Source of the DNA: Methylomarinum vadi
GTDB taxonomy: Bacteria > Pseudomonadota > Gammaproteobacteria > Methylococcales > Methylomonadaceae
NCBI RefSeq assembly: GCF_000733935.1
Contig: NZ_JPON01000001.1
Coordinates: 1,906,501 to 1,970,500 of the forward strand
Direction of reading: 5' to 3'
DNA length: 64,000 bases
A program made the translations under genes and the position numbers. Below, piece after piece: positions 49,852 to 61,457 of this stretch. Within the stretch, counting starts at the first letter, position 1. Each line of letters starts with the position of its first letter. The notes under the pieces were generated by a model, which saw only the letters and a program-made list of their open reading frames with translations, was not told where the DNA came from and made no database searches.

Positions 49852-49881
49852 CCCCATATTATGTCTTGACATAATATGGGG
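49852..49881. promoter_or_regulatory. Perfect 30-bp palindrome (operator candidate) over the -35 box
   Basis: CCCCATATTATGTC, two bases, GACATAATATGGGG: fourteen perfectly paired bases on each arm. The right arm contains the -35 hexamer of the promoter for the DUF2170-PspA cluster. No T-run follows, so it is not a terminator. It is best read as the binding site of a dimeric regulator. Confidence 0.75.
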
Positions 49882-49894
49882 CTTGTCCTATGCT
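49866..49894 (+). promoter_or_regulatory. Promoter of the PspA-flotillin-ATPase cluster
   Basis: TTGACA (49866-49871), exactly 17 bases, TATGCT (49889-49894). It lies about 30 bp before the first ATG of the cluster, with initiation expected near 49901. It would be strong unless the palindrome is occupied. Confidence 0.75.
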
Positions 49895-49923
49895 TACCTC
49901 AACCTTGGAAAGAAGGAGCCATC

Positions 49924-50343
49924 ATGAAGACTCTCATCACGCTGGACCAGCTTGCCGATGCTTTGCACGGAACTAACATCGCCGATGACTTGAGCCTGTC
50001 GACACAGATCATCGACGGCGAGGCGCCAGTATTGCAGATCTTGATAGAAAGCCGAGAGGAATTTCCTATCTACGTGACGATCGACGACAGCCAAATCCTT
50101 TGCGTCAGTTATCTATGGAAGGATCAGGAAGTCATCGCCGAGAAACGCGGCGAATTATTGGATACGTTATTAACGCTGAATCTTCCGATGCCGCTCTCCT
50201 CTTTTTCCAAGCTGGGCAACCAGTACATCATTTTCGGCGCGCTGAACGTCAATTCGGACATCGCCGACATCGTCCATGAAATCGAGGCGCTGAGCCAAAA
50301 CACCCTCGACGCGCTGGAACTGCTGGTCGACTACCTGAAATAA
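49924..50343 (+). CDS. yjfI: DUF2170 family protein (YjfI-like)
   Basis: The protein has 139 aa, soluble, alpha/beta. It opens LITLDQLADALHGTNIADDLSLS and contains SREEFPIYVTIDDSQILCVSYLWKD and LNLPMPLSSFSKLGNQYIIFGAL, features I associate with YjfI/DUF2170. In E. coli yjfI stands next to the PspA-like yjfJ, the same pairing as here. Molecular role unknown; probably a partner of the PspA protein. AAGGAG is 7 bp before ATG 49924. First gene of the cluster. Confidence 0.8.
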   Translation: MKTLITLDQLADALHGTNIADDLSLSTQIIDGEAPVLQILIESREEFPIYVTIDDSQILCVSYLWKDQEVIAEKRGELLDTLLTLNLPMPLSSFSKLGNQYIIFGALNVNSDIADIVHEIEALSQNTLDALELLVDYLK

Positions 50344-50373
50344 ATCGCAACGACAATCCCACGGAGTATCGAT

Positions 50374-51066
50374 ATGAACATATTGACCAAACTGATCACC
50401 GCCTTGCGTGGCGTCGGCAACGAGGCCGGCGAGGCCATCATCGACAGCCAGGGCATCCGCATCATGGAGCAGGAAATCCGCGATGCCCGCGAAAGCCTCG
50501 ACTACGCCAAGGAAAACCTGACCGAGGTTCTGGCCGAACAAATGGCCGCCAAGCGGGAAGTGAAAAGACTGGATCAAGACATCGCCGAACATGAAGACTA
50601 CGCGACCCAGGCACTGGATAAAAACGACGAGGCCTTGGCGCTGGAGATCTCCGGCAAAATCGCCGAGTTGACCAACCAACACGAAGCGCAAAGCGCGATG
50701 CTGGAAAACTACACGGCGCAGATCTCTTCACTGAAACAAACCATCGCTCAAACCGACCGCAACATCCAGGCCATCGAGCGGGAATTGGCCATCGTCAAGA
50801 CCACCGACAGCGTGCAAAAAGCCAACGCCGCGATCGCCGCCAAGTTTTCCGGCACCGACTCCGCCCTGCGCTCGGCCACCGAATCGCTGGAACGCATCAA
50901 GGCCAAGCAACAAAAACGCAACGACCGCATGCAGGCCGCCTTCGATCTGCAACAGGAAGAGCAAGGCGGAGACTTGCAAAGCAAACTGCAACAAGCCGGC
51001 ATCGTCACCGCAGACGCTTCGGCCGACAGTATTTTGGCTAAACTGAAAGCCAAGCGCAGTTCGTAA
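50374..51066 (+). CDS. yjfJ: PspA/IM30 family protein (YjfJ-like)
   Basis: The protein has 230 aa, almost entirely helical. NILTKLITALRGVGNEAGEAI at the N terminus could be the membrane-binding helix. Long coiled-coil helices follow (LDYAKENLTEVLAEQMAAKR, LKQTIAQTDRNIQAIERELA) and a final TADASADSILAKLKAKR helix. PspA/IM30 proteins form ESCRT-III-like rods on stressed inner membranes. It lies 30 bp after DUF2170. No pspF, pspB or pspC gene and no sigma-54 site is near, so this is not the classic Psp operon. Confidence 0.9.
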   Translation: MNILTKLITALRGVGNEAGEAIIDSQGIRIMEQEIRDARESLDYAKENLTEVLAEQMAAKREVKRLDQDIAEHEDYATQALDKNDEALALEISGKIAELTNQHEAQSAMLENYTAQISSLKQTIAQTDRNIQAIERELAIVKTTDSVQKANAAIAAKFSGTDSALRSATESLERIKAKQQKRNDRMQAAFDLQQEEQGGDLQSKLQQAGIVTADASADSILAKLKAKRSS

Positions 51067-51101
51067 GATGCGGTGAGGTACGAACCGCATCGATCAAGAA
51101 A
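51064..51101. repeat. REP unit upstream of the RAYT remnant
   Basis: GTAAGATGCGGTGAGGTACG continues to AACCGCATCGATCAAG, with stem GATGCGGT/ACCGCATC. It begins in the last codon of the PspA gene. An inverted copy lies at 51488-51528. Confidence 0.75.
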
Positions 51102-51107
51102 CAAAGA

Positions 51108-51485
51108 ATGACCGAATATCGCCGATTTAAACATCCGGGAACGATTTGGTTTTTCACGGTCAATTTAGCCGAACGACATAATAATCGACTCCTAGTTAAC
51201 CGTTTCAATTTGCTGCGCGAGTCCTTCTTATATGTGAAAAACAAACGCCCCTATCAAATAAATGCGGTGGTGATATTGCCAGAACATTCACATTGCGTTC
51301 TGACGTTACCGGAAGGCGATAACGACTTTTCCTGCCGCTGGGGATTAATCAAGGCTTATTTTTCCCGTCATATCGAAAAATGCGAAACAATCTCGAAAAG
51401 CCGGGAAAAGCGCGGCGAACGAGGAATATATCCAATGAATTGGGGAGATGGTGTCGATGTTTCCGACATCGCGGCAGGTGAATGA
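51108..51485 (+). pseudogene. REP-associated tyrosine transposase (RAYT) remnant
   Basis: The frame holds 125 residues, of which about 107 match RAYT proteins: TEYRRFKHPGTIWFFTVNLA, then LPEHSHCVLTLPEGD with an HUH-like H-x-H, RWGLIKAYFSRHIEK and SREKRGERGI. At about 51428 the match stops. The usual continuation with WQRRFWEH and the catalytic-tyrosine region is missing and replaced by unrelated residues. The gene is therefore a 3'-deleted remnant, unable to act alone. It is flanked by inverted REP units and lies within the stress cluster. Confidence 0.85.
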
Positions 51486-51487
51486 CT

Positions 51488-51528
51488 TGATCGATGCGGT
51501 TCCTGGCGTCACCGCATCCTACCTGCCC
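51488..51528. repeat. Inverted REP unit downstream of the RAYT remnant
   Basis: The reverse complement begins GTAGGATGCGGTGACGCC and continues AACCGCATCGATCAAG, nearly the same as the unit at 51064-51101 but in opposite orientation. Confidence 0.75.
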
Positions 51529-51548
51529 AAATGCATAACAAAACCCGT

Positions 51549-51619
51549 AGGATGTGCTGAACAAAGTGAAGCGCATCGTTCGCGATTGATGCGCTTCGTG
51601 TCCTCAGCGCATCTTACAT
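51549..51619. repeat. Paired REP units (BIME-like)
   Basis: GTAGGATGTGCTGAACAAAG with GCGCATC, followed by a unit that reads GTAAGATGCGCTGAGGACAC with GCGCATC in reverse complement. Two REP variants lie head to head, 30 bp before the YqiJ-type gene. They may affect mRNA processing or folding between the cluster genes. Confidence 0.7.
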
Positions 51620-51649
51620 ATTACCTCATCCGACTAAAGAGCAACCACC

Positions 51650-52258
51650 ATGGATTCCGTACTGGAACATATCGTTAGCTTTCCGACCGTGGTCTACACG
51701 GTGCCGTTGACCGTCTGCCTGATATTCTGGATCGTCGGAATCATCGGCTTGTTCGATCCCGACTTTCTCGATGTCGACATCGACGCCGATACCGGCTTCC
51801 CCGGCCTGCTGGCCACCTTCGGCCTGGCCGGCGTGCCGATCACGCTTTCCTTGAGCCTGCTATTCTTCTTCGCCTGGGCGCTGTGCCTGAGCGGCGTAAC
51901 CTGGCTGCTGCCGTTGCTGCCGATCGGTTTCATCCTGCAACTGGCGGGTATTGCCGTTCTCCTGCTCAGCTTTGTATTGGCGGTAATCATCACCGGCAAG
52001 ATCACCCGGCCGTTGAGCCGCTTGTTCGTCACCCACGAGGCGCGCAGCAACCGTTCTCTGTTGGGGCAATCTTGTGTCGTTACATCGCAGACGGTCAGCG
52101 AGGATTTCGGCCAAGCTAGAGTAGAAGACGGCGGCGCCAGCCTGGTCATCTCGGTGCGCAGCGATGGCGAAGACATGCTGAAGCATGGCGACAAGGCCCT
52201 GATCTACGACTACGAAGCCGAACAAAACGTCTACTATATTTCTAAACTGGATCAATAA
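51650..52258 (+). CDS. yqiJ: YqiJ-type membrane protein with OB-fold (NfeD-like)
   Basis: The protein has 202 aa. Three predicted membrane helices (about 15-34, 62-88, 92-118) are separated by FDPDFLDVDIDADTGFPG. A C-terminal OB-fold follows (about 140-200, RSLLGQSCVVTSQTVSEDFG, then a GDKALIYDYEAEQNVYYI end). This fits YqiJ (DUF1449), the partner of the flotillin YqiK; NfeD proteins play this role elsewhere. The ATG lies 16 bp after a REP-rich gap, with only a weak ribosome binding site. The flotillin gene begins 16 bp downstream. Confidence 0.88.
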   Translation: MDSVLEHIVSFPTVVYTVPLTVCLIFWIVGIIGLFDPDFLDVDIDADTGFPGLLATFGLAGVPITLSLSLLFFFAWALCLSGVTWLLPLLPIGFILQLAGIAVLLLSFVLAVIITGKITRPLSRLFVTHEARSNRSLLGQSCVVTSQTVSEDFGQARVEDGGASLVISVRSDGEDMLKHGDKALIYDYEAEQNVYYISKLDQ

Positions 52259-52274
52259 CTCTGGAGTCAATCCC

Positions 52275-54317
52275 ATGGAAACCGTTCTATTTATAGCCGG
52301 CGTACTGGCGGCCATCATCATCGGCGCGCTGATCGTGTTCGCGTCGATGTACCGCAAGGTCGACCAGGGCCGGGCGATGATCGTCAACACCCTGCGCGCC
52401 GAACCGAAAGTCACCTTCACCGGCAGCCTGGTGATCCCGGTGCTGCACCGCGCCGAGAAGATGGATATTTCGCTGAAAACCATCGAAATCAACCGCCGCG
52501 GCGGCGAGGGACTGATCTGTAAGGACAATATCCGTGCCGACATCGTCGTATCGTTCTTCGTCCGCGTCAACAAGACCCGCGAGGACGTGTTGAAAGTCGC
52601 CCAGGCCATCGGCTGCGACCGCGCTTCCGACCAGGCCACCGTCGAGGAATTGTTCAACGCCAAATTTTCCGAGGCCTTGAAAGCGGTCGGCAAGCAAATG
52701 GAGTTCGAGGACTTGTACCGCGAACGCAACCATTTCCGCGACGAAATCATCCGCATCATCGGCCAGGACCTGAACGGTTATGTGCTGGAAGACGCCGCGA
52801 TCGATTTTCTCGAGCAAACGCCGATGAACCAGCTCGACGAAAACAACATCCTCGACGCCCAGGGTATCCGCAAGATCACTGCGTTGACCACGGAACAGCA
52901 CGTGCATACCAACGAGCTGAAACGCGACGAGCAGATGAAGATCAAGAAAAAGGATGTCGAAACCCAGGAAATGATCCTCGAACTCGAGCGCCAGCAGGCC
53001 GACGCCGAAGCCAGACAGCGACGAGAAATCGAGTCGGTGCAGGCCCGCGAACAGGCCGAGGCCGACAAGATCAAGGCCGAGGAACACACCAAGGCCGAAC
53101 AGGCACGCATCGCCTCCGAGCAAATCATCGGCATCGACGACGAAAACAAGCAACGCGAGATCGAGGTCGCACGGAAAAACCGCGAACGAGCGATCACGAT
53201 CGAAACGGAAAAAGTCGAGCGGGTCCGCCAATTGGAAGTGATCGACCGCGAGAAGGAAGTCGAACTGCAGCGTATCGCCAAGGAAAAAGCGCTGGAGGAA
53301 CAAAAGAAGGAAATCGCCGACGTCATCCGCAGCCGCATCGCCGTGGAAAAACATGTCGCCGAGGAAGAAGAACGCATCAAGGAATTGCGCGAAGTCTCGG
53401 AAGCCGACAGACAACGCCAGGCTACCGTCATCACCGCCGAGGCCGAGGCGCAGGAAAGCCTGGTCAAACGGGTCAAGGCCGCCGAAGCCTCGGAGCAAAG
53501 CGCGCAATTTAAGGCCAAGGAAACCCTGGTGCTAGCCGATGCCGAGTTCGCCGCCGCCGAAAAACAGGCGCAAGCGAAAATCCGCCTGGCCGAAGGCATC
53601 CAGGCCGAACAGGCCGCGCAAGGCCTGGCCGAGGCCAAGGTGCTGCGCGAGCGCATGAGCGCCCAAGCCGAAGGCGACGAGGAGCAAGGCATGGCGCAAG
53701 TGCGAATCAAGGACGCCGATGCCGACTCGGAGGAAAAACAAGCGATGGTGGCGGTCAAGATCAAGGTCGCCGAGGCCGAGGCGATCGAACGCCGCGGCGC
53801 AGCCGAGGCCGAAGCAATTCGTCTGCACTTCAAGGCCGAGGCCGACGGCTTGCAGGAAAAATTCGCGGCGATGGCCAGCATGGACGAGAAAACCCGCAGC
53901 CACGAGGAATTCAGGCTGCAGATGGACAACAGCCACAACGAAACGATGGCGGCGATCGAGGCCGGCCGCGAGGCGGCGAATCTGAACGCCGAAATCTTCG
54001 CCGCAGCGGTCAAAGAGGCCAATATCGACATCGTCGGCGGCGACGGCGAGTTCTTCGATCGCTATATGCGCGCCCTGGCGGTCGGCAAATCGATAGACGG
54101 CGCCGTCAGCAAGAGCGAGTTGCTGCAAACAACCTTGGGCGAGCACCTGAGCGGCAAGCAAAACCTGATCGAGGACTTCAAGGAAATCGCCCAAAACATC
54201 GGCGCCGACGGCCTGCAAAACCTGACCGTATCGGCCTTCCTCGGTAAGCTGATGACTCAGGGCAGCGCCGAAGACAAGGCCAAGGTGCGCGCCTTGTTGG
54301 AATCGCTGTCCAAATAA
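52275..54317 (+). CDS. yqiK: Flotillin-family protein (YqiK-like)
   Basis: The protein has 680 aa. An N-terminal membrane helix (about 4-26, LFIAGVLAAIIIGALIVFA) precedes an SPFH/Band 7 domain (about 30-210, RAMIVNTLRAEPKVTFTG, ICKDNIRADIVVSFFVRVN). A very long charged coiled coil rich in alanine, glutamate and lysine follows (about 230-590), with a C-terminal helical oligomerisation part. Flotillins scaffold membrane microdomains. It is longer than E. coli YqiK (about 550 aa) because of an extended coiled coil. CTGGAG precedes the ATG. Paired with the YqiJ-type gene as in E. coli. Confidence 0.93.
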   Translation: METVLFIAGVLAAIIIGALIVFASMYRKVDQGRAMIVNTLRAEPKVTFTGSLVIPVLHRAEKMDISLKTIEINRRGGEGLICKDNIRADIVVSFFVRVNKTREDVLKVAQAIGCDRASDQATVEELFNAKFSEALKAVGKQMEFEDLYRERNHFRDEIIRIIGQDLNGYVLEDAAIDFLEQTPMNQLDENNILDAQGIRKITALTTEQHVHTNELKRDEQMKIKKKDVETQEMILELERQQADAEARQRREIESVQAREQAEADKIKAEEHTKAEQARIASEQIIGIDDENKQREIEVARKNRERAITIETEKVERVRQLEVIDREKEVELQRIAKEKALEEQKKEIADVIRSRIAVEKHVAEEEERIKELREVSEADRQRQATVITAEAEAQESLVKRVKAAEASEQSAQFKAKETLVLADAEFAAAEKQAQAKIRLAEGIQAEQAAQGLAEAKVLRERMSAQAEGDEEQGMAQVRIKDADADSEEKQAMVAVKIKVAEAEAIERRGAAEAEAIRLHFKAEADGLQEKFAAMASMDEKTRSHEEFRLQMDNSHNETMAAIEAGREAANLNAEIFAAAVKEANIDIVGGDGEFFDRYMRALAVGKSIDGAVSKSELLQTTLGEHLSGKQNLIEDFKEIAQNIGADGLQNLTVSAFLGKLMTQGSAEDKAKVRALLESLSK

Positions 54318-54385
54318 GACGCCATCCCCGGCGGACATCGTCCCGTCCGCCGGTCAACTGGAATACAACGCAAGGAAATCCATCG

Positions 54386-54934
54386 ATGAATTGCCCGAAA
54401 TGCCAAACGCCACGCCTGAAACCTACGAAATTGGCCGCCGGATTGCCAGCGGAAGGCTGCCAGGAATGTCACGGCGCGCTGGTCGCGTTGCTGACCTATC
54501 GCGACTGGCAAGAACGTCATCCGCTAGCAGCGAAATTTACCGAAGCAACAAAGCAAACCGCCGAAATCGACGACAATGATACGAAAACGGCGCTCAATTG
54601 CCCGAAATGCGGGGGCATCATGACCAAATATCGCTTCTCGGCCCAGTCGCAGCAACGTCTCGACTTGTGCGTGCGCTGCAACGAAGTCTGGCTGGACGAC
54701 GGCGAATGGAAGCTGATTCAGGCATTGTCCCTGACCGAGCAATTCACCCGTTTTTTCAACGACCGTTGGCAATTGCAGATCAAACAGGAGCACCATGCCG
54801 CATTGCAGGAAGACAAGTTCAAGACCTTATTTGGCAAAGATTATGAAGAAATCAAACGGCTGCGTGACTGGCTGGCGGGACACGCACAGCGCCGCGAAAT
54901 TCTGGACTACCTGAACCGCGAAGCCGGCCTTTAA
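54386..54934 (+). CDS. TFIIB-type zinc-ribbon protein
   Basis: The protein has 182 aa. Two zinc-ribbon motifs are visible: MNCPKCQTPRLKPTKLA with EGCQECHGA at the N terminus, and LNCPKCGGIMTKYRF with DLCVRCNEVWLDDGEWKLI. The latter is the zf-TFIIB signature (CPxCxxxM...CxxCxGxWLDxGE). The C-terminal third is helical. Such proteins are thought to be adaptors; function is unknown. It sits between the flotillin and giant-ATPase genes (68 bp after the former), with AAGGAAA upstream of the ATG. Confidence 0.85.
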   Translation: MNCPKCQTPRLKPTKLAAGLPAEGCQECHGALVALLTYRDWQERHPLAAKFTEATKQTAEIDDNDTKTALNCPKCGGIMTKYRFSAQSQQRLDLCVRCNEVWLDDGEWKLIQALSLTEQFTRFFNDRWQLQIKQEHHAALQEDKFKTLFGKDYEEIKRLRDWLAGHAQRREILDYLNREAGL

Positions 54935-55004
54935 CCGCCACCATCGTTCCCACATTTCGCTAAGGAATGAAGATTAAATAACTTAAATATTTCGGATTAT
55001 CAAC

Positions 55005-55074
55005 GGCGGGTTACGACGCGCCCAACGATAAGAGGATAAATTAAGGTTCATTGTGTAGCGCGTCTAACCCACCC
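55005..55074. repeat. Inverted repeat in the leader of the giant ATPase gene
   Basis: GGCGGGTTACGACGCGC and, in reverse complement, GGGTGGGTTAGACGCGC enclose about 36 bases. It lies 70 bp before the ATPase ATG in a 209-bp gap. It resembles dispersed intergenic palindromes and could act on mRNA or give the ATPase separate expression. Confidence 0.6.
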
Positions 55075-55143
55075 TACACGTTTTCGTAAATTTTTAAATG
55101 ATATACAAATTAATAAATTTTCATTCCTAAACACATATTCATC

Positions 55144-58100
55144 ATGGCGACAGAGCAAACTTCATCCGACATTCAACAGGCCGTCGCCGCCGGCGGCGCC
55201 TACGACGTCATTCGCAAGCGTCTGGAGCAGCAAGGCGAGCAGTTGCAGGCCAAGATCAACCGGCTCAACGAGGCCCGCGCCGCCGAATTCGGCCAAACCG
55301 AACTGAGCGTCGTCGGCCGGGTGCGGGTGCGCACCGAAAACAACTGCGTGCCGCGCGACATCGTCCGGGTCGGCAATAAATTGATTCTGTTCGGTTACAA
55401 CGTCTTCCTCGGTCTGAAGAAAGAAACCGAGGTCGGCGACGTGTTCAACCTGTACCGCCTGGTCGAAAACGGCGACGGCTTCGAGGTCGAACCTTTTAAC
55501 GACAGCGGCAGCTTCCTGAACGAAAAAAAATTCGTCGCCGATTTCAAGGAGCTGTATCAATACTATAAAGACACCCGCCTGCTGTCGCTGCACGTCGTCA
55601 ACGAACGCCTGCTGGCGGTGTTCCAGATCGGCCGCAAGCTGGAGGACGTGCGCGTGTTCCGCTGGCAGATCAGCGGCGATCAGGTCAACTACATCGACAA
55701 CCGCGGCGAGCGCGACCGCCCTACCCCGCCGCGCTTCGACTTCGAATGGACCCCGACCCGCCGCGAGGACCATGTCCAGGGCAGCCATCCGCACATCAGC
55801 ATACTCGACAAGGTGTTCGTCGAAACCATCGGCGGCGACCTGACCATCAAGGTCGAGAACAATACCGAAGACGGGCTAGGCATCTACCGCGAGCCGGTCG
55901 AGGACCAGCATCAATCCTTGGCCGATGCCGAAATCCATTACGCCGAGCTGGGATCGCTGATCCTGTTGAAGATCAAGCCTTATCGCGAGGAACATTGTCG
56001 TTATCTGGTATTCAACAGTCGCACCCAACAAGTCGACCGCATCGATGCGATCGGCCAATCCTGCGTGCAACTGCCCGAGGATCACGGCCTGGTTTTCCCC
56101 GGCGGTTATTACCTGCAAAACGGCGACAATAAGGTGTTCGACAATGCGTCGGAGGGACTACGTTTCGCCTACAGCGTCCGCTCGCCGAACGGCGAGGACG
56201 TGCTGTATGTGTTCCACGAACCGGAAGCCGGCATCAGCGCGCTATTTTCCTATAACCTGATCGACAAGACCCTGCAGAACCCGATCATCGCCCACGGCAG
56301 CTGCCTGTTCCGCGACGGCCACATGCTCGCCTTTCGCGCCGAGGACGACGAACCCACCCGGATTCATCCGATGCAGGTCTGGCAGACGCCGTATTTCCAT
56401 GAGGAATACCAACTGCAGCAGCCGGTCGGGCAATCGTTTTTCGGCAAGATCGGCAACAGCGAACTGGTGCGCGGCATCTCGGATGCATATAGCTTGGTTC
56501 ACGCGATCCACGCCCAGCAGGTCAGCACGGCCCATTACGAGGACCTGATCGCCGCCGGCCAGCGCATGTTCGACGCCTACCATTGGCTGCATGCACCCGA
56601 AGTCGAGGCGATCGGCGACGATATACAAACCCTTTGCCAGACCGCCGAACTGGTGCTGGATGAATTCGAAAAGGTCAGCAGCATCCGCAAGCAGAGCGGA
56701 CAGGCGCTGGCCGAGGCGCAAACGCGCCAGCAGCAGTTGCTCGACAACCTGTATATCGACAGCTGGCGAAAGCCGCAGGAATACGTCGACGCCCTCGACG
56801 GCCTGCGCCGGCAACTGGGCCACCTGAATACGATCAAGGAGCTGCGTTATATCGATCTGGCCGCGGTCGAAACACTGCGCCAGGAAATCGACGCCGCGCT
56901 GGACCGGGTCGGCCAGGCGACGGTCAAGTTTTTGAGCGAGGCGAGCGCGCTACAGGTCTATCACGACGCCATCGCCGACTGTCTGCAGCGCTTGGACAAG
57001 GCCCAGGCCACGATCGATATCGAACCGCTGGCCGAGCAACTGGAGCAGATGAGCGTCGCTCTGGACCTGCTCAACGAAACGCTGGCCGGCATCAAGGTCC
57101 ACGACACCCAGGTTCGCACGGCTATTCTGCAAGCGCTGTCGGAGCTGTACGGCAAGCTGAATCAGGCCAAGGCGCAGACCCGGCATAAGAGCAAGAGCTT
57201 CCGCTCCGAGGAGGCGGTCGCCGAATTCGCCGCGCAATTCAAACTGTTCTCGCAAAGCATTAACAGCGCGCTGGAAACGGTGGCGACGCCGCTGCAATGC
57301 GACGACCAACTGTCGCGCTTGTCGACCCAATTGGAAGAACTGGAAAGCCGTTTCGCCGATTTCGACGAATTTCTCGGCGACATCGTGCGCCAGCGCGAGC
57401 AACTGTTCGAAGCCTTCCAAAGCCGCAAACAGGCCTTGCTGGACGAAAGGCAGCGGCGCAGCCAGAACATCGGCACGGCGATCGAGCGCATCCTCGACAC
57501 CGTGCGCCGCCGCAGCCAAAGCTTTCAGGAAGCCGACGCCCTGAACACCTATCTGGCCTCGGACCCGATGATCCTGAAGTTGCGCCAGTTGATCGAGCAA
57601 TTGCGCGAGCTGGAAGCCAGTGTTCAGGCCGACGACGCCGAAGCCAAGTTGAAGACGATCCAAGAGCTGGCGCTGCGCTCGCTGCGCGACCGGCAGGACA
57701 TCTTCGAGGCCGACGGCAACGTCATCCGGCTGGGCAAACATCGTTTCAGCGTCAACCGGCAAAACCTCGACCTGACCCTGATCAACCGTCAGGGGCAATT
57801 GGTCTGGCATTTGATCGGCACCGATTTCTATCAGGCGGCCGACGAACCGCGCCTGAACGAACTGCGCGACTTCTGGCAACAAAGCCTGATTTCGGAAACC
57901 GAGCGGGTCTATCGCGGCGAATTCCTCGCCGCGTCGATTTTGCACAGCGCCGAGCAAAGCCGGGACGGCTTGAGCCTGGACACGCTTTACACGGCCCTGC
58001 CGGTGGAAGGCGAGCTGTTGCGGATCGTGCGCCAATACACCACACCGCGCTTTCAGGAAGGTTACGAAAAAGGCATCCACGACAGCGACGCCTGCGCGAT

Positions 58101-60345
58101 CCTGAAACTGTTGCTGCCGCTGTTGCAAAGCGTCGGCCTGCTGCGCTACACGCCGGAGCAACGGGCGCTGGCCCTGGCCTTCTGGCGTTTCGCCGGAATT
58201 GACGACGAACAAAAACAAAACTGGCAGCGCCAGGCGCAAAGCGCCGCGCGACTGCTACAATCGTTGGGCAGCCGACAGGCCCTGGAAGTATTGAGCCAGG
58301 AACTGTCTACCGCGATCGCTGAATTTCTAAAGTGGCAAGCGCTGCCGCTCGGCGAATGCGACGCGGCCGCCGAGTATTTATGCGCCGAATTGTCCGAATC
58401 GGTGACCGCCTTCGCCACCAGTCAGTCGGGCCGAAAGCTGGCCGAGCAATTGCTGGAGCACCTCGGCAACATCGGCCACCGCGCCGAATACCAGGCCGCG
58501 CTACAACATGCGCAAAGCCGATTGCCGCTGCAGTGGCGGCTGACCGAAGCCTGGCTGCAAGGCCTGCTTGAACAGAGACAGGACGATCATCTGCGACGTT
58601 TCATCCCGGAAGCGGTGATGATCGTCCTCGCCGACAACACGATCGAACGCCAACACAACACCGCGGCGCTCGATTGCACTATCGAGGAACTGATTGGCGA
58701 GCACCCGCGCATCCGCGAACGCAAGCTGACGCTCAGCGTCGACGAATTCGGCGCCCGCCTCAGCCATCACCGCGAGGTCATCTGTCCCGGCTTCCGCCAG
58801 TATCAAGATCTACGCCAAAGCCTGACCGAACGGCAACGGGCCACGCTGCATCTGGACAGTTTTCGCGCCCAGCCGTTGACCTCGTTCGTGCGCAACCAAT
58901 TGATCAACGACGTCTACCTGCCTCTGATCGGCGACAACCTGGCCAAGCAAATGGGCACGGTCGGCGACAACAAGCGCACCGACCTGATGGGGTTGCTGTT
59001 GCTGATCTCCCCGCCCGGCTACGGCAAGACCACGTTGATGGAATATGTAGCCAACCGCCTCGGCCTGATTTTCATGAAAATCAACTGTCCCTCGCTGGGC
59101 CACCAGGTGCATTCGCTGGACCCGTCGCAGGCGCCCAACGCCACCGCCGCGCAGGAGCTGGAAAAGCTCAATCTGGGCCTGGAAATGGGCAACAACGTCA
59201 TGCTCTATCTCGACGACATCCAGCATACCCATGCCGAATTTCTGCAGAAATTCATCTCGTTGTGCGACGGCTCGCGGCGCATCGAGGGGGTCTGGCGAGG
59301 ACAGAGCAAGACCTACGACCTGCGCGGCAAGAAATTCTGCGTGATCATGGCCGGCAACCCCTACACCGAATCGGGCGAGGTGTTCAAGATCCCCGACATG
59401 CTGGCCAACCGCGCCGACATCTACAATCTCGGCGACGTATTGTCCGGCAACGACGCCGTTTTCGCGCAGAGCTACCTGGAAAACAGCCTGACCTCCAACG
59501 CCGTATTGCAACCGCTGGCGATGCGCTCGATGGCCGACGTCTACCGCTTCATTCGCCTGGCGCAAGGGGAAAACATCGCCAGCAGCGATTTCGAGCATGG
59601 TTATTCCGGTTCGGAGAGCAACGAGATCGTCGCCGTGCTGAAGAACCTGCTGAAGGTCCGCGACGTCGTGCTGGCCGTCAATCAACAGTACATCGCCTCG
59701 GCGGCCCAGGACGATCGCTATCGCAGCGAACCGCCGTTCAAGCTACAGGGCAGCTACCGCAACATGAACAAGATGGCGGAAAAAATCACGGCGATTTTGA
59801 ACGAGGAGGAACTGCAGGCGATCATCAGCGACCATTACGTCGGCGAGGCGCAGACGCTGACGCGCGGCGCCGAGGAAAACCTGTTGAAGCTAAAGCAAAT
59901 TCGCGGCGTGCTATCGGACGAGGAAAGCGTGCGCTGGGAAACCATCAAAAACGAATACGCCCGCCGCAACCGGCTTGGCGACGCCGACGATCCGGCTCAA
60001 CAGTTGGTCAATCAGTTGTCCTATATCAGCGACAAACTGGCCGCGATCGGCGAACGCCTGCAATCCCCTTCCCCTATGCTCGAGCTGAACCGGGAAGTCG
60101 CCGCGCTGCGCGAGCAACTGGGCCGCAAGGACATGCAGGTCGAGGTGATCAATCATCCGCAACCCGGCGTCGACCAGGCGCTACAGAAAATGGCCGAATT
60201 GTTCGAGGTCGCCTTCATGCCGGTGTTCTCGGCGATGGAACACAAGATCAAGATGGAACACGACATCTGGGACCGGGTTAAGGAATTGAACGAGGAATTC
60301 GATGCCTTGCGCAAGAATTTGAAGGAGCGAAAAGGCGATGGATAA
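55144..60345 (+). CDS. Giant coiled-coil AAA+ ATPase (1733 aa)
   Basis: A 1733-aa protein. Residues about 1-470 are strand-rich with repeated short sheets (RVGNKLILFGYNVFL, VNERLLAVFQIGRKL, LGSLILLKIKPYREEH), possibly a beta-propeller-like or sensor region. Residues about 480-860 form long coiled coils. A mixed helical part (870-1230) follows, then an AAA+ domain: Walker A PPGYGKTT at 1290-1297 (K1295), Walker B VMLYLDDI at 1352-1359, and sensor region CVIMAGNPYTESGE near 1400. A second coiled coil closes the protein. Similar proteins are annotated 'DNA repair ATPase', for which I know no evidence of function. Context here (PspA, flotillin) suggests membrane-associated remodelling. No signal peptide is visible. 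Confidence 0.85.
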   Translation: MATEQTSSDIQQAVAAGGAYDVIRKRLEQQGEQLQAKINRLNEARAAEFGQTELSVVGRVRVRTENNCVPRDIVRVGNKLILFGYNVFLGLKKETEVGDVFNLYRLVENGDGFEVEPFNDSGSFLNEKKFVADFKELYQYYKDTRLLSLHVVNERLLAVFQIGRKLEDVRVFRWQISGDQVNYIDNRGERDRPTPPRFDFEWTPTRREDHVQGSHPHISILDKVFVETIGGDLTIKVENNTEDGLGIYREPVEDQHQSLADAEIHYAELGSLILLKIKPYREEHCRYLVFNSRTQQVDRIDAIGQSCVQLPEDHGLVFPGGYYLQNGDNKVFDNASEGLRFAYSVRSPNGEDVLYVFHEPEAGISALFSYNLIDKTLQNPIIAHGSCLFRDGHMLAFRAEDDEPTRIHPMQVWQTPYFHEEYQLQQPVGQSFFGKIGNSELVRGISDAYSLVHAIHAQQVSTAHYEDLIAAGQRMFDAYHWLHAPEVEAIGDDIQTLCQTAELVLDEFEKVSSIRKQSGQALAEAQTRQQQLLDNLYIDSWRKPQEYVDALDGLRRQLGHLNTIKELRYIDLAAVETLRQEIDAALDRVGQATVKFLSEASALQVYHDAIADCLQRLDKAQATIDIEPLAEQLEQMSVALDLLNETLAGIKVHDTQVRTAILQALSELYGKLNQAKAQTRHKSKSFRSEEAVAEFAAQFKLFSQSINSALETVATPLQCDDQLSRLSTQLEELESRFADFDEFLGDIVRQREQLFEAFQSRKQALLDERQRRSQNIGTAIERILDTVRRRSQSFQEADALNTYLASDPMILKLRQLIEQLRELEASVQADDAEAKLKTIQELALRSLRDRQDIFEADGNVIRLGKHRFSVNRQNLDLTLINRQGQLVWHLIGTDFYQAADEPRLNELRDFWQQSLISETERVYRGEFLAASILHSAEQSRDGLSLDTLYTALPVEGELLRIVRQYTTPRFQEGYEKGIHDSDACAILKLLLPLLQSVGLLRYTPEQRALALAFWRFAGIDDEQKQNWQRQAQSAARLLQSLGSRQALEVLSQELSTAIAEFLKWQALPLGECDAAAEYLCAELSESVTAFATSQSGRKLAEQLLEHLGNIGHRAEYQAALQHAQSRLPLQWRLTEAWLQGLLEQRQDDHLRRFIPEAVMIVLADNTIERQHNTAALDCTIEELIGEHPRIRERKLTLSVDEFGARLSHHREVICPGFRQYQDLRQSLTERQRATLHLDSFRAQPLTSFVRNQLINDVYLPLIGDNLAKQMGTVGDNKRTDLMGLLLLISPPGYGKTTLMEYVANRLGLIFMKINCPSLGHQVHSLDPSQAPNATAAQELEKLNLGLEMGNNVMLYLDDIQHTHAEFLQKFISLCDGSRRIEGVWRGQSKTYDLRGKKFCVIMAGNPYTESGEVFKIPDMLANRADIYNLGDVLSGNDAVFAQSYLENSLTSNAVLQPLAMRSMADVYRFIRLAQGENIASSDFEHGYSGSESNEIVAVLKNLLKVRDVVLAVNQQYIASAAQDDRYRSEPPFKLQGSYRNMNKMAEKITAILNEEELQAIISDHYVGEAQTLTRGAEENLLKLKQIRGVLSDEESVRWETIKNEYARRNRLGDADDPAQQLVNQLSYISDKLAAIGERLQSPSPMLELNREVAALREQLGRKDMQVEVINHPQPGVDQALQKMAELFEVAFMPVFSAMEHKIKMEHDIWDRVKELNEEFDALRKNLKERKGDG

Positions 60346-60650: not shown

Positions 60651-61457
60651 ATGGAAGTTTTCGGAGAGAAGTGGATAGAGAGGGCGAAAAAAGTCACGGA
60701 TGTTGATTCGTGGGCTTATAACGTTATACGCAGCATAGATACTACAGGTGGCATTTATCTCAATACGCTACGTATTTGGTGTGAGCAGTTCCCTACAACA
60801 AATAAGCAAAAGAAGCCATTAAAGCAACGTATCGAGAGTTTCTCTAATGTAGATCACCTTGGCGGAGTAAATGAGCTATCGTGGTGGAAATTTCTGCTGA
60901 GTAGCAATCTTGGCGCAGAACCAGTGCCTACTACAACCAGTCCACGTCCTGATTTTAAGGTGCTTACACCGACAGAGTTCTTCATCGAAGTAACAACTCT
61001 GAATATTTCTGACAGTGAAAAGAAGAAGTTAGAAGCTGATGGAGCTGTTCCGCTTGATCACATGGAAACTCTCCGTCGCATTTTGCTCAAATCCACCAAC
61101 GACAAATGCGAACAGATCGCCTTCGCGAGTGTCGAGCGAAGGCCATGCTGTTTAGTGCTATTCGATTACACAATATGGAGTGGATATGGTACTCAGCTAT
61201 TTATGTATTTGGCGAGCTATTTACTTGGTAAGCAATGTGGGTTCCAAGATCTTCCTGTCGAGCTGTCCGCTCTTATTTACGTTGAGCGCAAAGTGATGGA
61301 TGGGCGCATTGGACTAAGTCTTGATAGGTCAGCCGTTTACTACAATCCGAACGCTGCGCACCCTCTTGCGATAGGAACATTCACAGCACTGCGGCAGTTC
61401 TGGTATCAAACTGTGGAAGTAGAACCGCAGTCTGCGAATCACTGGGTATGGTTGTGA
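60651..61457 (+). CDS. Unknown protein with weak PD-(D/E)XK-like features
   Basis: The protein has 268 aa and no recognised family. A helix with NELSWWKFLLSSNLG (E75) precedes RPDFKV (D101) and TEFFIEVTT (E113). The spacing E...PD...hhhE-x-T resembles the core of PD-(D/E)XK nucleases, but the lysine of ExK is a threonine. The rest is helical with a hydrophobic segment TQLFMYLASYLLGKQ. The composition is more AT-rich than the upstream cluster, suggesting transfer. It could be a defence-related or inactivated nuclease-like protein; this is conjecture. Confidence 0.55.
   Translation: MEVFGEKWIERAKKVTDVDSWAYNVIRSIDTTGGIYLNTLRIWCEQFPTTNKQKKPLKQRIESFSNVDHLGGVNELSWWKFLLSSNLGAEPVPTTTSPRPDFKVLTPTEFFIEVTTLNISDSEKKKLEADGAVPLDHMETLRRILLKSTNDKCEQIAFASVERRPCCLVLFDYTIWSGYGTQLFMYLASYLLGKQCGFQDLPVELSALIYVERKVMDGRIGLSLDRSAVYYNPNAAHPLAIGTFTALRQFWYQTVEVEPQSANHWVWL

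Follow-up and report, generated by a model that had tools for sequence, protein, structure and literature searches.

One locus of Methylomarinum vadi bears on two open questions about bacterial flotillins and the widespread PspA proteins of YjfJ/BacB type: what controls them, and which partners they work with. The locus lies in a 64,000-nucleotide stretch of contig NZ_JPON01000001.1 (the window, whose numbering is used throughout), where six plus-strand genes encode, in this order, DUF2170, PspA/IM30, a YqiJ-like membrane protein, a long flotillin, a TFIIB-type zinc-ribbon protein and a giant AAA+ ATPase. An earlier note on this DNA had named these genes; open reading frames and Pfam matches bear out their identities, strand and order, and their co-linearity is far beyond chance. 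The note had also seen novelty in the full set with this ATPase, a claim that does not stand: Ravi et al. 2024 (PMC11237479) had already described the operon class, with an AAA+ protein carrying a coiled coil and a β-propeller, and had noted wider 'abbreviated' flotillin-YqiJ-AAA+ operons. The window holds, co-directionally, all parts of their CesT-PspA-flotillin-AAA+-YqiJ type (DUF2170, PspA, a flotillin with transmembrane, band 7 and coiled-coil parts, the β-propeller/coiled-coil AAA+ protein and a three-transmembrane YqiJ) and differs in an added zinc-ribbon gene and the insertion of a REP-associated tyrosine transposase. The gene set is thus a member of a published operon type and is not itself new. 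What is new is the operator and the likely repressor of this operon type, together with evidence that the ATPase has the flotillin, and not PspA, as its constant partner; it is the control circuit, with the apparently obligate pairing of flotillin and ATPase, that merits attention.

Read from sequence, the control region comprises a single predicted promoter before the DUF2170-PspA-YqiJ-flotillin-(zinc ribbon)-ATPase genes, with a palindromic operator on its −35 box. The promoter (49866..49894, plus strand) is σ70-like, with TTGACA and TATGCT 17 bp apart, and is a consensus match only (10/12). The putative operator is a 30-bp palindrome at 49852..49881, CCCCATATTATGTC-TT-GACATAATATGGGG, in which two inverted GACATAATATGGGG copies lie over the −35 box. 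We corrected the start of the first gene, encoding a DUF2170/YjfI/short BacA-type protein of the CesT/Tir-fold chaperone family (49924..50343, plus strand; PF09938, E 9e-32), from 49876 to 49924 (GGAGCCATC-ATG); the ATG at 49876 falls within the promoter and operator. Across the 4.3 Mb of this genome, GACATAWTATGGGG is matched at the operator (49852-49881) alone, and the same element is found 5′ of DUF2170 or PspA in five other genomes. In place of the σ54 (−24/−12) promoter of the canonical PspF-controlled psp operon, the window has the σ70-like promoter with overlapping operator, and no strict σ54-like site occurs upstream of the first gene in the examined clusters, the copy from this genome (L002) included.

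Exact copies of a related 13-bp palindrome, GACATAWTATGTC, number 19 across the 2.1 Mb of related loci, and each precedes the first cluster gene or its YqiJ sub-operon by no more than about 100 bp. The copies often come in pairs spaced 30-31 bp, one covering the −35 box and the other just past the −10, a layout as expected for a repressor. The palindrome is confined to cluster promoters in nine of eleven genomes. The seven sites of genome G067 precede YqiJ-flotillin-ATPase (with the zinc-ribbon gene divergent), DUF2170-PspA-DUF4178-RHH, the DUF350/spermidine-synthase genes, PspA-PspC, an NfeD gene accompanied by two stomatin genes, and a further SPFH gene; the site at this last gene (L133:3179) forms part of a hairpin with T residues after it, and could instead be a terminator. 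In genome G459, no clear membrane-stress gene accompanies three of the six sites. An operator-like site in G459 (L135), possibly a chance match, is found 8 bp ahead of a VWA-domain-like gene, itself placed after a MoxR-like ATPase gene.

A tandem ribbon-helix-helix (RHH) protein follows the operator closely in its distribution, occurring in 13/13 operator genomes vs 0/14 ATPase genomes without the operator. Across an even sample of 369 Gammaproteobacteria, both protein and motif were present in eight genomes, the protein only in five and the motif only in four (Fisher, 7.7e-11). Each motif-only genome has a single copy, a rate like that of a reversed control pattern, and the five RHH-only genomes, M. 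vadi included, have variant strands. Operator and protein vary together: GACATAWTATGGGG is paired with RHH variants that bear Q[I/L]AFE in 6/6 genomes examined, among them the window's relative G004, where it is always upstream of DUF2170 or PspA, although two same-genus pairs reduce this covariation to about four lineages. The regulator candidate is, by its structural model, a tandem RHH protein of two β-α-α units, and its top seven structural matches by VIA are all RHH proteins (Z 6.5-7.4; best TraY, single-chain Arc and AvtR). Sequence libraries gave no significant match (those in Pfam and PDB sequences were weak or misleading), and Foldseek returned none for the model at E<0.001. The gene, for a protein of 107 residues, lies outside the window, at 1975632-1975955 of the genome (L155:11133-11456; window numbering about 69132-69455), 8.8 kb past the ATPase, with an efflux operon of RND type and a short transposase reading frame in between. 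In the closest relative (L104:11569-11898) it instead runs into the end of the ATPase gene, and in several other genomes its place is between pspA and yqiJ or behind DUF4178-like genes. We predict this protein to be the repressor of the operon. An XRE-HTH gene next to one genome's NfeD operon was also considered as regulator and was dropped once the RHH protein fitted the operator distribution. In Ravi et al. 2024 (PMC11237479) an RHH factor appears only at the end of the spermidine-synthase group, as its last gene, and no operator or regulon is given for the operon group to which the window belongs.

A second regulatory type is found at 26 loci, whose longer DUF2170 has a basic N-terminal extension (SSAHYQREYRxRLREQGLVKKEVWILPE). 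Their promoters carry a palindrome, TYACATGTRA, usually twice, in 24 of the 26 cases (23 recognized automatically, plus L058, with a misplaced start), vs 0/8 loci with the short type. The simplest reading is that DUF2170 has its own DNA-binding part in the long-type genomes, a role that a separate RHH protein would take in the others. Such a DNA-binding part fits the Pseudomonas aeruginosa bac operon, in which a bacA (DUF2170) mutant shows BacB-F raised 6-13.5-fold (PMC10948618, PMC2587700), and suggests a specific mechanism for this unexplained derepression. The same studies found the bac genes on one transcript by reverse-transcription PCR and an increase of BacB upon osmotic shock. The operon, bacABCDEF (PA3732-PA3728...), resembles the window in that BacA is DUF2170, BacB PspA, BacC a short NfeD/YqiJ protein and BacD a 76-kDa SPFH protein, PaFlo3 (PMC13086221). 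From the gene order in other Pseudomonas loci, and since PA3728 is labelled 'ATPase' (PMC8190622), BacE is probably the DUF3686 ATPase. The bac operon differs in the extension fused to its BacA-type DUF2170, and related Pseudomonas promoters have TYACATGTRA instead of GACATAWTATG(TC or GG); P. aeruginosa is itself known here from the literature alone. Neither operator type was found in this context in the papers searched. A common operator for YqiJ-flotillin-ATPase loci that lack PspA was also sought, and rejected when palindrome and k-mer enumeration gave nothing above shuffled sequences, a null result that doubles as a negative control for both operator types.

Which partner, then, does the ATPase serve? 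We counted its companions at those 76 ATPase loci whose upstream sequence reaches 6.5 kb or more. They are the best matches to one query, mostly from Gammaproteobacteria, and hence a biased sample. A flotillin was present at 74, YqiJ at 72, PspA at 37, DUF2170 at 32 and the zinc ribbon at 9. Flotillin and YqiJ are near-constant neighbours, PspA is adjacent at about half of the loci and the zinc ribbon is optional. These counts bear directly on the idea, developed from the note's suggestion of a motor analogous to Vps4, that the giant AAA+ protein is a bacterial Vps4 counterpart that disassembles PspA polymers. PspA (50374..51066, plus strand; YjfJ/BacB type; PF04012, E 5e-38) is a member of the ESCRT-III superfamily with an AAA+ protein encoded nearby, and in one genome that lacks a local PspA, PspA has the same operator as the ATPase genes. 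Ravi et al. (PMC11237479) moreover suggest ATP-dependent remodelling for PspA-AAA+ neighbourhoods. An AAA+ protein of the ESCRT kind should, however, be regularly linked to PspA, and 39 of the 76 loci have no adjacent PspA while flotillin and YqiJ are nearly constant. With the further differences in flotillin and AAA core described below, we consider a Vps4-like role improbable.

The long flotillin itself (52275..54317, plus strand; SPFH, with a transmembrane segment, band 7 domain and coiled coil; Band_7, E 7e-13) tracks the ATPase at the level of whole genomes. An even draw of 398 Pseudomonadota genomes contains the ATPase family in eight, and the long flotillin in exactly these eight; 43 others have only YqiK-type flotillins, 26-31% identical, with alignments ending by about residue 480. 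By profile, a C-terminal segment of about residues 462-600 is present in 8/8 ATPase-linked flotillins and 0/23 unlinked ones, E. coli YqiK included, and so appears peculiar to the ATPase-linked class. Because of the partner counts, the exact genome match and this segment, we read the special long flotillin as the dedicated partner of the ATPase and PspA as a frequent companion. That the partner-specific segment sits in the flotillin also counts against a Vps4-like motor on PspA.

The ATPase is patchily distributed. M. vadi has one copy in its single 4.3-Mb contig; in a draw of nearest relatives only 2 of 61 genomes, this one counted, have the gene, and the closest homologue (about 70% identity) is from a Methylococcaceae assembly of the same genus. 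The flotillin-ATPase pair nonetheless spans Pseudomonadota, Deinococcota, Actinomycetota and plasmid records of Bacteroidota. Plasmid records with the pair come from Deinococcus, Streptomyces, Nonomuraea and Hymenobacter, the Hymenobacter plasmid carrying a whole Tir-PspA-DUF1449-flotillin-ATPase set, and large plasmids with the pair in several phyla include NC_009444.1 (pQBR103). This carriage suggests horizontal spread. A gene for a rhomboid-like membrane protein (about 185-192 residues) recurs beside PspA/YqiJ at L056, L057, L071 and L092 and on pQBR103.

The ATPase (55144..60345, plus strand; 1733 residues) comprises a DUF3686 region at residues 34-480, DUF7902 at 602-684 within coiled coil, and then the AAA core (E 1e-202, 6e-21 and 3e-7, respectively). 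Ravi et al. 2024 (PMC11237479) describe the DUF3686 region as a β-propeller; here it is a DUF3686 match only. The core has an invariant Walker A motif, PPGYGKTT, at about residues 1290-1297, Walker B (LDDIQ), sensor-1 (GNP), sensor-2 (YRNMNK) and a candidate arginine finger (ANRAD), and residues 1626-1733 form a variable coiled-coil tail. The protein has no clear transmembrane segment and no MIT domain match at E<=0.1. With a model of residues 1160-1733 (predicted local distance difference test, pLDDT, 74), the best VIA matches of the AAA core were NorQ/CbbQ (Z 10.3-10.6, root-mean-square deviation 4.6-5.1 over about 222-224 residues), followed by ClpB/ClpA at Z of about 8 and Vps4 at 7.3. The modelled core thus appears to resemble the MoxR-type NorQ/CbbQ proteins more than Vps4, which, with the missing MIT domain, does not favour a Vps4 role, although the model is too poor to argue against relatedness to Vps4. 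The RefSeq name of the protein, 'DNA repair ATPase', raises the different possibility that it is a DNA-repair protein placed beside membrane genes only by accident. RuvB is indeed among the top Foldseek matches, but with template-modelling scores of only 0.15-0.19 where VIA prefers NorQ/CbbQ; its almost invariable association with YqiJ and a dedicated flotillin in four phyla, and an operator that it shares with psp and SPFH operons, make a repair role very improbable.

We consider it reasonably probable that the locus is an inducible envelope-stress operon with a flotillin-linked AAA+ machine that works beside PspA. The functional link to membrane or envelope stress, an inference in the earlier note, gains support from neighbourhood conservation, from the operator and its regulator and from the P. 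aeruginosa bac data. In our proposal, the RHH protein would repress the operon at the palindromic operator, and DUF2170, as a CesT-type chaperone that probably binds PspA, would signal membrane stress to the repressor; BacA-type relatives would have the DNA-binding part fused to DUF2170 itself. Stress would derepress the set, PspA would coat damaged membrane, and the flotillin with YqiJ would build a membrane-microdomain scaffold that faces the cytoplasm. The giant AAA+ protein, which is not a membrane protein and has a MoxR-like core, propeller and coiled-coil arms, would dock on the flotillin, probably via the C-terminal segment, and use ATP to remodel or extract proteins at the scaffold. 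Docking on the segment, a sensor role of DUF2170 and ATP-driven remodelling are what we infer from these data. The arrangement would recall HflKC-FtsH, with an AAA+ machine tied to a flotillin, more than a Vps4 that serves PspA. HflKC-FtsH likewise combines an SPFH scaffold with a dedicated AAA+ protein, and is an analogy only, FtsH differing from the window ATPase in its protease domain, membrane anchor and AAA core.

Several observations weigh against this proposal. The Walker B motif has aspartate at the position of the catalytic glutamate, so that ATPase activity is not assured, and confidence in the AAA model is moderate (predicted template-modelling score 0.53, with the pLDDT given above). 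Gaps of 209 bp between the zinc-ribbon and ATPase genes and of 583 bp between pspA and yqiJ leave a single transcript unproven in the window. At ATPase loci without adjacent PspA, about half, neither operator type was found, which limits operator control to the DUF2170 subset. In two Methyloprofundus assemblies (L007 and L009) the ATPase gene has no flotillin neighbour, neither flotillin nor YqiJ being found within its upstream flank of about 7-10 kb. Finally, the P. aeruginosa bac studies (PMC10948618, PMC2587700) propose a σ54 promoter.

A closely related alternative separates the two modules: flotillin, YqiJ and ATPase would form an unfoldase scaffold for membrane-protein homeostasis, with PspA and DUF2170 a separate pair that has its regulator in common with the scaffold. 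Activation or remodelling of client proteins is a common task of MoxR-type cores such as NorQ/CbbQ. The dyad and the triad are found apart in many genomes, and in two genomes they lie in separate operons under one operator type. At 32 of the 76 loci, however, both modules are joined in one operon with one operator at its front, and we regard such a division as unlikely, if worth keeping in view.

Returning to the inducible envelope-stress operon, its parts can be combined into one larger reading, which we advance tentatively. Two interchangeable repressor designs with different operators would control the operon type, one a tandem RHH protein with a short DUF2170, acting at GACATAWTATGTC or, in the lineage of the window, GACATAWTATGGGG, and the other the BacA type, a DNA-binding extension fused to DUF2170 and acting at TYACATGTRA; DUF2170 would sense PspA occupancy, and the AAA+ protein would be the obligate motor of a distinct flotillin class. 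If true, this would be a flotillin-AAA+ membrane machine of a so far undescribed kind. The operator, candidate repressor, second operator and ATPase-tracking flotillin segment turn vague neighbourhood links into directly testable ones.

E. coli offers a counterpart with both modules apart. Its yjfIJ(K) and yqiJK genes encode homologous DUF2170-PspA and YqiJ-flotillin pairs; in K-12 the pairs are separate loci, as the earlier note had said, with no ATPase gene in either stretch, and YqiK, at 553 residues, lacks the C-terminal segment. PF12458 was absent from 14 control genomes, E. coli among them.

The remaining features of the locus are less constant or less well marked. The YqiJ/YuaF-like protein of short NfeD/BacC type (51650..52258, plus strand) has no Pfam match of its own; its identity follows from hydrophobic segments, same-position homologues at 72 of the 76 loci and an equivalent gene on the Hymenobacter plasmid annotated DUF1449 (YqiJ). 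Between pspA and yqiJ, which lie about 20 bp apart in the nearest relative, the window has a 3′-truncated remnant of a REP-associated tyrosine transposase (51108..51485, plus strand; NF047646, E 2e-30) with an imperfect inverted repeat just 3′ of it (51568-51597). The remnant is found at this locus only among the compared ATPase loci; it is an insertion outside the system that interrupts the gene order. The zinc-ribbon gene (54386..54934, plus strand; Zn_ribbon_TFIIB, E 6e-10), taken by the earlier note for a component, is an optional passenger: it is divergently oriented in one genome and missing from the nearest relative's cluster, and with only 9 of the 76 loci we rejected it as a core component. 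Membership in a defence system was likewise dropped, PADLOC giving only weak coiled-coil or P-loop matches and our searches no phage homologue. Downstream of the ATPase, a 268-residue open reading frame (60651-61457) has no Pfam or NCBIfam match, and at the Cellvibrio and Pragia/Limnobaculum loci (L012, L014, L028, L033 and L044) unannotated genes of about 183-190 and about 228 residues recur after the ATPase.

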